This document shows, piece after piece, positions 11,642-16,032 of a stretch of 64,000 nt of DNA. Origin of the DNA: Acidobacteriaceae bacterium (GTDB lineage Bacteria; Acidobacteriota; Terriglobia; Terriglobales; Acidobacteriaceae). Position 1 is the first letter of the stretch. Every line of letters starts with the position of its first letter. The DNA is taken from contig PKUV01000059.1 of the NCBI GenBank assembly GCA_003131315.1, positions 49,934 through 113,933 of the forward strand. The letters run 5' to 3'. The position numbers were made by a program, and so were the translations under genes. The notes under the pieces were generated by a model, which was not told where the DNA came from, made no database searches, and saw only the letters and a list, made by a program, of their open reading frames with translations.

Positions 11642-12526
11642 CTACAACCCGGCTTCAATCCGGGATCTTGGGTCTAGAAGGTCGCGCAATGCATCGCCGA
11701 TAAAGTTGAAGGCCAGGACCGCGAACATCACCGTCACCGCCGGGAAGAGCACCAGATGAGGAGCATCGAAGAGGTGCGAGCGAGCGTCGTTCAGCATCGA
11801 TCCCCAACTCGCGGTTGGCGGCGGCACGCCTAATCCCAGGAAGCTCATCGTCGCTTCGGCCAGAACCGCGCCCGCCATTCCGATTGCCGCCTGCACAATC
11901 ACCGGCTGAATGATGTTGGGCAGGATGTGCCTGGTAATGATGTGGAGATCTCCGGCGCCGAGCGCCCGCGCCGCTTCGACAAATTCGCGTTCGCGCACCG
12001 CCAGCACCTGTGCGCGCACCAGGCGGGCGTAGCCCACCCATCCTCCAATCGACAGAGCAAGAATGAGGTTGAAAATGCCAGGGCCGCGGAAGGCCACGAA
12101 GGCGATCGCGATGAGAATGCCGGGGAACGAAAGAAACGCATTCATCAACACGACGTTGACGAAGCGGTCGATGCCCCCGCCGTAGTATCCGGCAAGGCTG
12201 CCGATGATGAGGCCGAGCAGAAGCGAACACGCCACCACGCTGCTGCCCACAAACAGAGAAATACGCGCGCCCCAGATCAGGCGAGAGAGGATGTCGCGTC
12301 CAAGTTCATCGGTTCCGCACCAATGCTGCGCCGAGGGCGTTTGCAAGCGGTTTGGAAGATCGATATGGGCGGGATCTTGCGGAGCAATCCAGGGCGCGAA
12401 AATCGCGGAGAACGCGAAGACGGCAAACAAGATGACTCCGACGGCCGCCAAGGGATTGTGGCGGGCGATGCGGGTGGTACGGCTCAGTTGCCAGTTGCTG
12501 GTTGTCAGTTGTGCGTTGGTGACCAT
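11642..12526 (-). CDS. ABC transporter permease, DppC/OppC type
   Basis: A 294-residue inner-membrane permease of the peptide/nickel/opine uptake family. It carries the N-terminal OppC segment (NPLAAVGVILFAVFAF), the characteristic GTDELGRDILSRLIWGAR, and the EAA loop that contacts the ATPase (EAARALGAGDLHIITRHILPN). The first 20 residues (TNAQLTTSNWQLSRTT) look like read-through of a local repeat, so the functional start may be later. Its normal partner, the DppB-like permease, is at 15115-16032 on the same strand, 2.6 kb upstream, with a toxin-antitoxin insert between them. No solute-binding protein or ATPase is in the window. Confidence 0.9.
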   Translation of the reverse strand: MVTNAQLTTSNWQLSRTTRIARHNPLAAVGVILFAVFAFSAIFAPWIAPQDPAHIDLPNRLQTPSAQHWCGTDELGRDILSRLIWGARISLFVGSSVVACSLLLGLIIGSLAGYYGGGIDRFVNVVLMNAFLSFPGILIAIAFVAFRGPGIFNLILALSIGGWVGYARLVRAQVLAVREREFVEAARALGAGDLHIITRHILPNIIQPVIVQAAIGMAGAVLAEATMSFLGLGVPPPTASWGSMLNDARSHLFDAPHLVLFPAVTVMFAVLAFNFIGDALRDLLDPRSRIEAGL

Positions 12527-12989
12527 CGAATCTTGAATTCTTGTCTCTGCTGTGTGCGGTCCCTTTTCCGCTGCGGTCTTGAAAGGCGCCGCTGGTTGTT
12601 GTCCGTGGGGTTACCCCCTCCCCCCCTCCCGCTCGGTCTATTGGAATGATGATGTTAGCGGGAATTTCCCGCCAAAGTCTTCAACGAAAATGACTTAGAT
12701 GCAAAGTATTGAGCGAGTGGGAGTTAGCAGCCAAGAAACGCCTGCACAGGCGACTGTCGCTTGTAAAGTATTCATTCCAGATACATTACATTCACAGTAT
12801 CGAAAATAAACGGTTTATCGTGACAGCCTGTCTCTCTTCTGGCGCATGACCTCGCCGGGGTCTCGCGGGGAAAGATGTCAAAGATCGCTGTTGGTGCGCC
12901 GCCTCCTGAGAAGCGGAAAGCTGGCAGAAAACTCGTTTGCTGTATTTCTATTTTAGCAGGCGGAGTCAAGCTCTAAATCGGCGTGGGCT
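12527..12989. other. Gene-free stretch between the DppC-like gene and the AbiEii gene
   Basis: I see no convincing gene in this 463-base stretch. It holds a pyrimidine run (TACCCCCTCCCCCCCTCCCG near 12613), a GCGGGAA-T-TTCCCGC palindrome at 12658-12672 and a CGCCTG/CAGGCG pair near 12739. Base composition shifts to more A/T from about 12650 on. It is the likely left boundary of the insert and the promoter region of the AbiEii-like gene; no clean promoter could be picked. Confidence 0.5.
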
Positions 12990-13964
12990 ATGCGTCGGCA
13001 TCCCACGTCTCGAAAATCGAAACGTGGAACCCGGCAAGACACCCAGAGCGTGATGGCGTGGCTTGATGGGCGAGAGATCGTGTGCAAGTATCGCTCTATG
13101 GCACAGGTCCCTCTGGATTTTCAAGCCATCAGGAGAATTGCTATCACAGCCCTGTTTTCTGACGACGTTCTGTTCGAAAAGGTGGTTCTTAAGGGGGGAA
13201 ACGCCCTCAATCTTGCGCTGGGCTTGAGCGACCGCACATCGCTGGATTTGGATTTCTCTATCGAGAATGATTTTGAGGATATTGAGGACGTGCGAAAGCG
13301 CATATCCGAAGCTCTCCGTCGGCGTTTTGGCTCAGCAGGATACGTAGTGTTTGATTTTAAGTTCGAACGGAAGCCCAAGGAATTGCGAGAAGGGGCCAAT
13401 CCGCGCTGGGGCGGGTACATGGTCTCATTCAAGTTGACGGACCAAGAGAAATACGAAAAGCTGGCGGGTAATATTGATGCACTCCGTCGTGATTCGCTCG
13501 TTATTGGGCCGAATCAACAGCGCGTTTTCACTATCGACCTGAGCAAGTGTGAATACGTCCAGGGCAAAAGAAAGGTAGAGATCGACAACTACTCTGTCTA
13601 CGTTTACTCATCTGAGATGATCGCAGTGGAAAAACTTCGTGCGATCTGTCAACAGATGCCCGAATACGCACTGAAACCTTATCCGACTCCACGAGCCAGG
13701 GATTTCTTCGATATTCACCTAATCGTCTCGCGGACAGGAGTGGATCTAACTTCGGCGGAGAATTTGGAACTGACACGTCAGATCTTTGCGGCGAAAGAAG
13801 TGCCACTGCGTCTATTAGCAAGTATAGGTGCGTTCCGAGAATTCCACCGTCCGGATTGGGAGAGCGTGAGAACTTCCACTAAGGCGCACTTGAAGGAGTT
13901 TGACCACTACTTTGATTTCGTGGTTAACGTCGTCAGCTCAATGAAATCCCTTTGGAACGTATAG
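12990..13964 (+). CDS. abiEii: AbiEii/AbiGii-type nucleotidyltransferase toxin
   Basis: Belongs to the type IV toxin-antitoxin toxin family (DUF1814), DNA polymerase beta-like nucleotidyltransferases that cause reversible growth arrest in phage abortive infection. Motif I is [13 protein letters not shown] (about 67-79), motif II is SLDLDF with both Asp residues, and the C-terminal family motif is AVEKLRAIC followed by [10 protein letters not shown], matching the usual EKL...RDxxDL. All key residues look intact. Start is uncertain: ATGs at 12990, 13053 and 13098 are in frame, none with a good ribosome-binding site, and the domain begins just after 13098. Its 3' end overlaps the antitoxin gene's 3' end by 27 bases; in described AbiE systems the two are in one operon. 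Confidence 0.85.
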
Positions 13965-14813
13965 GCGCCAGTCGGCAATGTATTCTGTGTCTCGCAAATC
14001 GTAGGTTAGGTAGAAGTCGTATTGCAGTCCGAGGTCTTTCAGTCTGCTGTATAGCTTCTCTGGATACCCCGCCCTCTGCATGTAAAAGCCGATTGCCTGA
14101 TGATATGGGTAAACGTATGCGAGTTTCTTGAGCGTGGCTATTAAAGTTCCGATTGAAACTTGTGATTGTGCGCGACGGTAGGCCTCCAATACCTGAAATA
14201 CGCCTCCCGAATAGTTTGGCCGAACCACGATATCAATGAGTGTTCGCTCCAAACTGGTAACCGGCAGCTTGGCTCCCGAATAATCTAGCAGTGTCACTTC
14301 GAGTTGGCCGGTATTCTTGCCCCAAAGCACCACTGCCTCGTGGTCGTTGAAGCGGAATACGAAAGTTGATTCTCGTTGTTTGTGGGCGAAGGCCCTATGA
14401 ATGCCATCCTGGGTGAGTATTCCTGAGGATGTCTTCGGACTTTGTTCTGCATTTACGAAAATGCGGGAGGGTATTTGCTCAGCTAGGCCGCGTAGGAACA
14501 GAGCGGTGGCATGGCAAAGATAAGCTTTTCGCTTTAGGGAGAGCGCAATTTCGTAAGGAGAGGCTTGTTTCCAAACGTACCTAATGGCGTTGTACGCACT
14601 GTGATGCGTCGCTAGGAGATCAACCTTCGTCATGGGGGTTTTGTCGAGAAGAAATCTCAGGAAGGCGGCGGTGCTTGTGTTCTGTGCTAGTCGCCAGAAC
14701 TGACGATGTTGAGTGAGAATGCTAGAAATATCGCTAGGCCAGAAGACTCGATTGGGCGCGTTATCGAACAGAGCGATTATGTCCTTCTTAGCGATTTGAA
14801 GTCTGGTTGCCAT
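13938..14813 (-). CDS. abiEi: AbiEi-type antitoxin (winged-helix transcriptional regulator)
   Basis: A 291-residue protein resembling AbiEi antitoxins: an N-terminal winged-helix-like segment (residues 1-60, [20 protein letters not shown]), a middle region, and the family block [22 protein letters not shown] near 190-210, followed by EAYRRA. AbiEi proteins neutralise AbiEii and repress their own promoter by binding inverted repeats. I set the start at the ATG ending at 14813 ([11 protein letters not shown]). The frame stays open to 14894, but that extension only translates a perfect palindrome. It is more A/T-rich than the flanking permeases. The orientation opposite to the toxin means the two genes have separate promoters. 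Confidence 0.75.
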
Positions 14814-14828
14814 TCTCGTAGTGTCGTT

Positions 14829-14874
14829 GGTATGGGACTGGATTTGGTATATATACCAAATCCAGTCCCATACC
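14829..14874. promoter_or_regulatory. Perfect 46-base palindrome P1 upstream of abiEi
   Basis: Every base from 14829 to 14874 pairs with its mirror around 14851.5, giving 23-base arms without mismatch. The centre is TTGGTATATATACCAA. It ends 15 bases before the abiEi start and lies at the predicted transcription start, so it could be an operator at +1 or a leader hairpin in the mRNA. The same 16-base core recurs at 14948 and 15050. Confidence 0.8.
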
Positions 14875-14878
14875 TTCC

Positions 14879-14908
14879 ATTCTAAAGTATGCAAGGCAGT
14901 TGTTGCAA
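14879..14908 (-). promoter_or_regulatory. Candidate sigma-70 promoter of abiEi
   Basis: Read on the minus strand: -35 TTGCAA at 14908-14903, 18-base spacer, -10 TAGAAT at 14884-14879. Transcription would begin near 14872, the outer edge of palindrome P1. Match is moderate, judged by eye only. Confidence 0.45.
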
Positions 14909-14939
14909 GTTGTGTGGGTTTCGAGCCTCACGGATACAC

Positions 14940-14971
14940 CATCTCACTTGGTATATATACCAAGTGAGATG
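14940..14971. promoter_or_regulatory. Perfect 32-base palindrome P2
   Basis: Perfect symmetry around 14955.5 with 16-base arms. The core TTGGTATATATACCAA is identical to P1 but the outer arm (CATCTCAC) is unrelated. It lies 104 bases from the centre of P1, upstream of the predicted abiEi promoter. Confidence 0.8.
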
Positions 14972-15042
14972 TACGACCGCATGAGACTCTATCCTCGTGC
15001 AATCCATTGGGGTTAAATCCAGATACCTTGGGACGGTTCACT

Positions 15043-15072
15043 GTATTGCTTGGTATATATACCAAGCAATAC
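15043..15072. promoter_or_regulatory. Perfect 30-base palindrome P3
   Basis: Perfect symmetry around 15057.5 with 15-base arms. The core is again TTGGTATATATACCAA and the outer arm GTATTGC differs from P1 and P2. It is 102 bases from P2 and 43 bases from the 3' end of the DppB-like permease gene. Confidence 0.8.
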
Positions 15073-15114
15073 GTCGACACCGCCCCAAGCTCTTCCTTTA
15101 GTTCCCGTCCAAGC

Positions 15115-16032
15115 TCACTGCCGAATCCTCGGGTTCACCGCCGAGTACAGCAAATCAGTCAGAAAGTTCACCGCAACATACGTCAACCCAATCGCCAGAA
15201 TGCATCCCTGCACCAGGTAGTAGTCGCGGTTGGCGATGGCTTGGATGGTTAGGCGTCCGATGCCGGGCCAGGAGAAGATGGTTTCGGTTACGATCGCGCC
15301 GGCTAGCAGCGCGCCGAATTGTAATCCGAGCACGGTTAGGATCGGGATCATGGCGTTGCGCAGGGCGTGACGATAGACTACGGTGCGCTCCGGCAAGCCT
15401 TTGGCGCGAGCGGTGCGAATGTAGTCTTGTCCTAACTCTTCCAGCATCGAGGTTCGCACCATGCGGGTCAGGATCGCGGCCAGCGCTCCGCCCATGGTGA
15501 TTGCTGGAAGCACCAGATGGGCTAAGCTGCCGGAACCGGACACGGGGAGCCATCCCAGCTTGACGGCGAAGAACAGGATCAGCACCGGTCCCAGCGCGAA
15601 GTTTGGGAACGACAGGCCGAAGAGGCTTACTACGCTTAGTGCGCGGTCATCCCATTGATTGCGGCGCTGGGCCGAGCGCACGCCTGCTGGAATGGCCAAC
15701 ACTATCGCTACAAATAATGACGCCAGCGTTAGCTGCAAGGTGAAGGGATAGCGCTGGGCGATCAATTTAGTAACTCCCTGGTTGAAGCGCAGCGACTTGC
15801 CTAGATCTCCGTGGAGGACGCCTTTCCAGTAATTCAGGTATTGCTGGCCGAGCGGCACATCGAGTCCATAGGCGTGGCGGGCTGCCTGGATGTCGCCGGC
15901 GGCTGCGCCCTCTCCTAGCATTTGCTGAATGGGATCGCCGGGAACGAAGTGGATCAGCAGGAAGACGGTGGAGACGACTAGCCAGATGACTGGCAGGGTG
16001 TAGAGGACGCGGGTGATGATGTAGCGCGGCAT
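15115..16032 (-). CDS. ABC transporter permease, DppB/OppB type
   Basis: A 305-residue inner-membrane permease of the peptide/nickel uptake family. It opens with the family signature MPRYIITRVLYTLPVIWLV and HFVPGDPIQQMLG. It has the segment YWKGVLHGDLGKSLRF, and the ATPase-contact loop is DYIRTARAKGLPERTVVYRHALRN. It should pair with the DppC-like permease at 11642-12526 to form the channel. These genes are normally adjacent; here an AbiE module with palindromes lies between them, so transcription of the downstream permease gene is probably altered. Confidence 0.92.
   Translation of the reverse strand: MPRYIITRVLYTLPVIWLVVSTVFLLIHFVPGDPIQQMLGEGAAAGDIQAARHAYGLDVPLGQQYLNYWKGVLHGDLGKSLRFNQGVTKLIAQRYPFTLQLTLASLFVAIVLAIPAGVRSAQRRNQWDDRALSVVSLFGLSFPNFALGPVLILFFAVKLGWLPVSGSGSLAHLVLPAITMGGALAAILTRMVRTSMLEELGQDYIRTARAKGLPERTVVYRHALRNAMIPILTVLGLQFGALLAGAIVTETIFSWPGIGRLTIQAIANRDYYLVQGCILAIGLTYVAVNFLTDLLYSAVNPRIRQ

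Follow-up and report, generated by a model that had tools for sequence, protein, structure and literature searches.

What keeps three DNA palindromes perfectly paired when, outside a shared centre, their sequences are unrelated? The question is raised by an AbiE toxin-antitoxin locus in a 64,000-nucleotide stretch of an Acidobacteriaceae genome (assembly GCA_003131315.1, contig PKUV01000059.1, positions 49,934 to 113,933), hereafter the window, in which three unstranded, spacer-less palindromes lie between the stop of an oppB gene and the start of the antitoxin/regulator gene abiEi. The proximal one, P1 (14829-14874; 46 bases, half-length 23, core 14844-14859), is centred 38 nt before the abiEi ATG, the middle one, P2 (14940-14971; 32 bases, half-length 16, core 14948-14963), 142 nt before it, and the distal one, P3 (15043-15072; 30 bases, half-length 15, core 15050-15065), 244 nt before it. 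An initial, sequence-only reading of the window had described three palindromes of 46, 32 and 30 bases with zero mismatches, one common 16-base core, TTGGTATATATACCAA, and mutually unrelated arms, and this description is confirmed; folded as single-stranded DNA hairpins, P1, P2 and P3 have energies of -23.2, -13.4 and -11.8 kcal/mol. It had also seen nothing alike elsewhere in the window, and a scan of every centre bears this out, finding no other spacer-less perfect palindrome there with a half-length of at least 11 (at least 22 bases). Allowing up to three mismatches, the core occurs at three places in the window, P1 to P3 only (mean of 0.00 in 100 shuffles), and allowing up to two it occurs in the whole 6.0-Mb genome at these same places only (3/3 at the AbiE locus). 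We tentatively suggest, with a confidence somewhat below even, that the core is an operator of AbiEi and that the arms constitute a DNA cruciform switch.

Palindromes of this kind, most of them perfect, accompany one subfamily of AbiEi. In a uniform scan for spacer-less palindromes upstream of abiEi that made no use of the core, they were found at 31 of 35 distinct subfamily loci, with 63 matches of which 61 are centred on GTATATATAC and two on GTATGTATAC, and at 0 of 66 distant AbiEi loci. The loci had been obtained with abiEi as the query and were hence not selected by core, except for L141, which was retained from the core scan. Loci duplicated between collections and contigs that stop short of the upstream sequence (G561, G667, G255 and small fragments) were left out of the counts; one of 67 scanned distant loci, the weak match L273, duplicates the contig of subfamily locus L254 and was removed; and the start codons at some loci are estimates from protein alignment. 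Four subfamily loci fall below the palindrome threshold, namely L235 (G477), L250 (G253), L234 (G601) and L257 (G139). In the last two abiEi is broken and one core is still present, without arms in G601 and as a hybrid site in G139. All 26 distinct perfect palindromes of the first class-wide set (half-length at least 9) have the GTATATATAC core, the nearest palindrome centre lies 11-64 nt before the estimated abiEi start (32 loci), and a relative on a viral contig (L231) has two palindromes.

The sequence-only reading had proposed a link to AbiEi and had named what would argue against it, the same palindromes scattered beside unrelated genes in related genomes. In 24 whole genomes that carry this AbiEi, 38 copies of GGTATATATACC were found, spread over 19 of the genomes, and all 38 are at an AbiE locus, 36 upstream of abiEi and two upstream of the facing abiEii (G645), while the reversed control pattern is absent from the same genomes; the link is thus supported. 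Of the 32 copies of a 10-base core in 18 genomes, 25 belong to AbiE loci; the remaining seven all lack arms (reversed control, six times). On the strength of those seven copies we rejected the idea that the core, or palindromes in general, tend to grow arms. As for the 16-base core, it is real in P1 to P3 but is a local version, only GTATATATAC, and usually GGTATATATACC, being kept family-wide. It is absent from 299 other genomes of the family, and an exact scan gave 98 public copies, 81 stretches from a collection with one genome per species and 17 from a viral set. Eight of these lie beside an abiEi homologue, each with 4-12 extra pairs, and 90 lie away from one, 76 with 0-3 extra pairs and 14 with at least four (six from a single Parcubacteria metagenome-assembled genome).

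Beyond the core it is pairing that is kept. Conservation was profiled over 53 core sites in 25 loci, which were picked by core, so that conservation itself is established by the core-free scan and the first class-wide set; in this profile position 6 is mostly G or C and information is near zero beyond position 8. Arm identity over positions 7-14 is 0.28 within a locus (35 pairs) and 0.29 between loci (1343 pairs), yet a stem score of at least 5 is reached at 66 of 70 core sites (32 loci), as against 61 of 12,666 random centres, in support of the earlier statement that symmetry, not sequence, has been preserved. The stems of the 70 sites hold 824 Watson-Crick juxtapositions, seven G.T, five A.C, 27 others and 10 gaps, and in a wobble control that scored G.T and A.C both as half pairs, 154 G.T compare with 160 A.C. 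Arm GC is 0.485 and flank GC 0.484. The arms end sharply, pairing past the terminal mismatch being 0.20-0.37 against a baseline of 0.26, and mismatches and small bulges occur at the core-arm junction (positions 6-8); by eye, L148 and L248 have perfect arms of 13 bp and 19 bp around a 1/0 or 2/1 bulge. A cruciform calls for a spacer-less inverted repeat with at least about 10 bp per arm, and the ungapped half-length is at least 11 at 64 of the 70 sites. At nearly all sites the self-complementarity of the core extends through its very centre, as a linear dyad requires and a hairpin loop would not.

Comparisons between relatives indicate how the arms change. The proximal sites of G242 and G259, whose AbiEi proteins are 72% identical, differ in the arms at two places; both are compensated G-C to C-G changes, and within the arm no change lacks its compensation. 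Between G063 and G187 (AbiEi 76% identical) the arms have been replaced and the flanks are partly alike. The hybrid site of G139 (L257, centre 1460) consists of the left half of one G187 site and the right half of the other, with its arms mostly unpaired; it appears to have arisen by a deletion joining one core to the other, which suggests that repeated cores can recombine. Among four loci with broken abiEi genes, whose breaks may be assembly errors, G601 and G139 have lost pairing and G276 and G454:C102 retain it, which is weak evidence for selection.

Similar sites are found in other phyla. In a plasmid sample of 17 places in 17 records (from a total of 43 in 38 records, with L327 and L328 nearly identical to each other), upstream palindromes are present at all 17 loci, which come from Bacteroidota, Pseudomonadota, Planctomycetota, Bacillota and Campylobacterota and have AbiEi proteins 25-46% identical. 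The 41 matches, at least three of them terminator-like (L295 at -304, L327 at -353 and L328 at -354), compare with five in 61,763 control centres. The plasmid core is GTATATATAC in several Bacilli, Phycisphaera and Sulfurimonas, GGTACGCGTACC in Hymenobacter, with unrelated arms, GCGTTAACGC-like in Burkholderiales, GCGTATACGC in Veillonella, GTATGCATAC-like in Planococcus lenghuensis and ATCATATATGAT in Flavobacterium. Since the core varies with the AbiEi protein lineage, direct reading of the core by AbiEi is supported. In several Bacillota plasmids a -10 box lies, by eye, in the left arm, so that RNA would start near the palindrome centre.

We consider the conserved GTATATATAC core likely to be an operator bound by AbiEi at its own promoter, because the sites lie an estimated 11-64 bases before the start, where the AbiEi of relatives binds and represses its own promoter. 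A symmetric protein can demand a symmetric core, but not matching free arms, and the arms hence suggest that either a DNA structure or a copying mechanism is involved. By analogy with Streptococcus agalactiae AbiEi and Rv2827c, which repress at inverted repeats over their promoters, we posit that a symmetric pair of AbiEi molecules occupies the core and represses, and we predict that the arms let the site change from linear DNA with AbiEi bound to an extruded cruciform and back. Negative supercoiling, for instance behind RNA polymerase on abiEi or upon a change of torsion during infection, would extrude the AT-centred palindrome, placing the core within the hairpin tips, where AbiEi could no longer bind it; repression would thereby become dependent on torsion. 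Fresh, perfectly paired arms would likely arise by template switching during replication. Among the options offered by the sequence-only reading, the cruciform seems to us the best, although unproven. It is also possible, though here we lean rather against, that these sites form a class of operators with a short core recognized by its sequence and arms selected only for mutual pairing as DNA, a torsion-gated class that would tie antitoxin supply, and through it toxin release, to the superhelical state of the cell or of an invading phage. A literature search over titles and the starts of abstracts, with most subscription journals not covered, returned no description of such sites.

The main rival to a cruciform is that the arms have a mutational origin alone, snap-back template switching at AbiEi-bound sites rewriting one arm from the other, with only the core selected and the arms purposeless. 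The sharp arm edges and wide range of lengths speak for it, as do the Watson-Crick pairing in arms with the composition of their flanks and the replacement of arms between loci whose AbiEi proteins are 76-82% identical; template switching is also reported to yield perfect stems and compensatory changes in a single event (PMC8794818). The armless state of all seven core copies elsewhere, the rarity of core-less perfect palindromes (five among 70 distinct perfect palindromes across 1.43 Mb, in a DNA set enriched for the core) and the loss of pairing at two of the four broken abiEi loci speak against it, and we judge it unlikely. We find it more doubtful that the sites are plain long operators, with AbiEi reading a 24-30 bp dyad by sequence and the arms varying through loose specificity. 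Most plasmid sites do have half-lengths of 12-15, the same arms are repeated at some loci (B. subtilis, Lactococcus, Flavobacterium), and known AbiEi operators are 23-bp inverted repeats (PMC7319586; PMC3985639). However, loose reading would not preserve exact mirror symmetry, and in the main set the arms are no more alike within than between loci while their complementarity is near perfect.

Two further explanations had been raised by the sequence-only reading. RNA hairpins, transcribed as part of the abiEi leader or from both strands and acting on mRNA stability or translation, would account for the very stable stems and for their location near the 5' end of the gene, and convergent transcription could give both strands and so forbid G.U. 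Yet Watson-Crick pairing without a preference for G.T over A.C speaks against RNA, there being no sign of G.U tolerance, and so do stems without GC enrichment, the lack of any Rfam match above its gathering score (five matches are to microRNA models, far below theirs) and the by-eye Bacillota promoters, from which RNA would start near the centre; pairing for the sake of RNA is accordingly not supported as the principal reason, and we hold it to be improbable. That mobile or repetitive palindromes, akin to repetitive extragenic palindromic (REP) elements or miniature inverted-repeat transposable elements (MITEs), have come to lie beside abiEi by chance is scarcely credible. As this explanation would predict, the Parcubacteria genome carries the 16-base core at six dispersed places, with 15-19 paired flanking bases, but the 24 genomes contain no scattered copies of the 12-base core, and the 16-base core is confined to the AbiE locus in its own genome and missing from 299 other genomes of the family.

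Several results weigh against the cruciform switch, or sit awkwardly with it. In a trio of loci, two of which have AbiEi proteins 81-82% identical to the third, the proximal palindrome is the same, down to a shared T.T mismatch, with distal arms that differ and lie in different surroundings; and two of the broken abiEi loci, G276 and G454:C102, keep paired arms. Four of the 70 core sites are under the pairing threshold, the proximal site of G655 and the two G645 sites upstream of abiEii lack long arms (half-length 7 in each), and sites are altogether absent from G477 and G253, two loci without known breakage. Some arms are, conversely, 20-28 long, which is more than a cruciform seems to need. 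Plasmid loci of Bacillus subtilis, Lactococcus, Flavobacterium and some Burkholderiales have similar arms at all their sites, which is what a plain long operator would show. In the window itself no promoter can be assigned confidently, the best -35 candidate being TGGAAG.

Family promoters, scored with a consensus and weights, display just a weak -35 rise at -26/-25 before the proximal centre, and a conserved -35 at a fixed distance from the palindrome was rejected on that account. An intrinsic terminator was likewise set aside, as by inspection the stems of P1 to P3 have no T run after them. The centre spacings of 104 and 102 bases given by the sequence-only reading are correct; its remark that they are close to ten helical turns does not hold family-wide, 38 centre-to-centre spacings over 32 loci spanning 40 to 137 and showing no 10.4-11.0 bp periodicity (Rayleigh p 0.64-0.93), and a looping AbiEi repressor, which it had considered, is not supported in the form of phased operators. 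Palindromes were also seen at places where abiEi was not. The Parcubacteria genome, NIOZ-UU136, contains palindromes built on the 16-base core at no fewer than six dispersed places (L064, L071, L079, L106, L115, L133), in a few repeated versions, and no abiEi was found within the stretches examined. Three acidobacterial core copies have paired flanks (L073 at 326, L080 at 4905 and L092 at 2035, the last with a bulge), again with no abiEi homologue in the stretch examined. In Anaerosalibacter, L085 has two long perfect palindromes with different cores at 2404 and 2471, about 60 bases apart between short genes, and no abiEi was seen.

The abiEi gene of the window (13938..14813, minus strand, ATG at 14813) encodes 291 amino acids and is recognized by the PADLOC AbiEi model (E 2.9e-15), with no match in Pfam or NCBIfam. 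Its AlphaFold model has a mean confidence score (pLDDT) of 92.7, and the best folds in the PDB, at the top of the structure-match lists, are Rv2827c and S. agalactiae AbiEi; its profile matched neither PDB sequences nor the phage collection. The toxin gene abiEii (12990..13964, plus strand) encodes a nucleotidyltransferase (Pfam PF08843, E 1.3e-27; PADLOC AbiEii, E 4.7e-16; no NCBIfam match), and its true start may be the ATG at 13098, because many homologues align only from about residue 40. The window thus has both an AbiEii-family nucleotidyltransferase toxin and an AbiEi-family antitoxin, as in AbiE type IV toxin-antitoxin systems, but the genes are convergent, with a 27-nt overlap of their 3' ends, and do not form a bicistronic, co-directional abiEi-abiEii operon. 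The cassette extends from approximately 12993 to 15114 (unstranded), as delimited by homology to the corresponding gap of genus mate G165, the matching DNA starting at window position 12992. It is flanked by two minus-strand ABC permease genes, an oppB-type gene at 15115..16032, upstream of the palindromes and outside the element, and an oppC-type gene at 11642..12526 on the other side. In 15 other genomes of the genus or family in which both permease genes were placed, the oppB-oppC gap is 78 to 2671 bases long, and AbiE is in it in none of the 15, only in the window genome. The gap (window 12527-15114; L025-L041) is a variable insertion site in the genus, with differing contents.

The convergent arrangement is common to the family. 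In the main set an abiEii match was obtained at 21 of 32 loci, on the strand opposite to abiEi in 21/21 and with 3' ends at most 120 nt apart in 20; 14 of the 17 plasmid loci are convergent, two are divergent (L326, L329) and one has no annotated abiEii (L330). In G645 (L232, 3392 and 3513) two core copies, with just seven paired positions, lie upstream of the facing abiEii, and the toxin promoter may also be under AbiEi control there. Several loci that lack the facing toxin have a solo AbiEi with palindromes, divergent from other toxin systems (L242, L244, L254, L256, L271, L240 and L330). Divergent partners of solo AbiEi include an AbiEi_4/AbiEii pair (L242, L244), an AbiEii-like protein (L090), HipA (L256, L240 and, by its annotation, Sulfurimonas) and TacA/GNAT (L271), and the palindromes lie in the shared divergent region, a position expected of two-sided operators. 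The AbiEi-palindrome unit looks as if it were a portable regulator. With a convergent AbiE architecture so defined, the palindromes offer a simple signature for finding such systems, the regulators of which are mostly unnamed or "hypothetical protein" among the matches listed.

We note that DNA operators are expected to keep sequence and structured RNAs to keep pairing; this DNA element keeps sequence in its centre, and in the main set its outer parts keep pairing alone. Should the arms act as a cruciform, these sites would be a natural, repeated test case for gene regulation by cruciforms in vivo in bacteria and would suggest how a toxin-antitoxin pair senses torsion, and the sites would amount to an unusual kind of gene switch present in several phyla. 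If the arms are instead a by-product of template switching, the sites record that mutation process cleanly.

Cruciform-regulated sites are inverted repeats able to form cruciforms under negative supercoiling, and it is alongside these and the operators of other AbiE systems that the present sites can be placed. In S. agalactiae abiE, the mapped transcription start is 26 bp before the ATG, a position like that of the nearest palindrome centres here, and the AbiEi antitoxin binds inverted repeats over that promoter and represses its own operon (PMC3985639); the present inverted repeats would likewise lie over the promoter. That operator is an 11-bp perfect, 23-bp imperfect pair of repeats with a 3-bp spacer, whereas the present sites are spacer-less, with about 10-12 conserved bases and free but paired arms; similar repeats are described upstream of other abiE loci, and abiEi-abiEii is co-directional and bicistronic there, while the family reported here is mostly convergent (PMC3985639). 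Streptococcus suis ICESsuHN105 has promoter palindromes, IR1 and IR2, that are bound by AbiEi and required for repression, and the part of that report used here makes no mention of free covarying arms or of repeated palindromes with one core (PMC11062541). In Mycobacterium tuberculosis Rv2827c/Rv2826c, tandem inverted-repeat pairs lie upstream of the antitoxin gene and the protein fold is similar, but the operator comprises four 23-bp repeats with a sequence consensus, unlike spacer-less palindromes with free arms (PMC7319586). Finally, the hairpins attributed to template switching share with these sites their perfect stems and simultaneous compensatory changes; they were reported for RNA genes, whereas the present case is a DNA operator built around a fixed core (PMC8794818).
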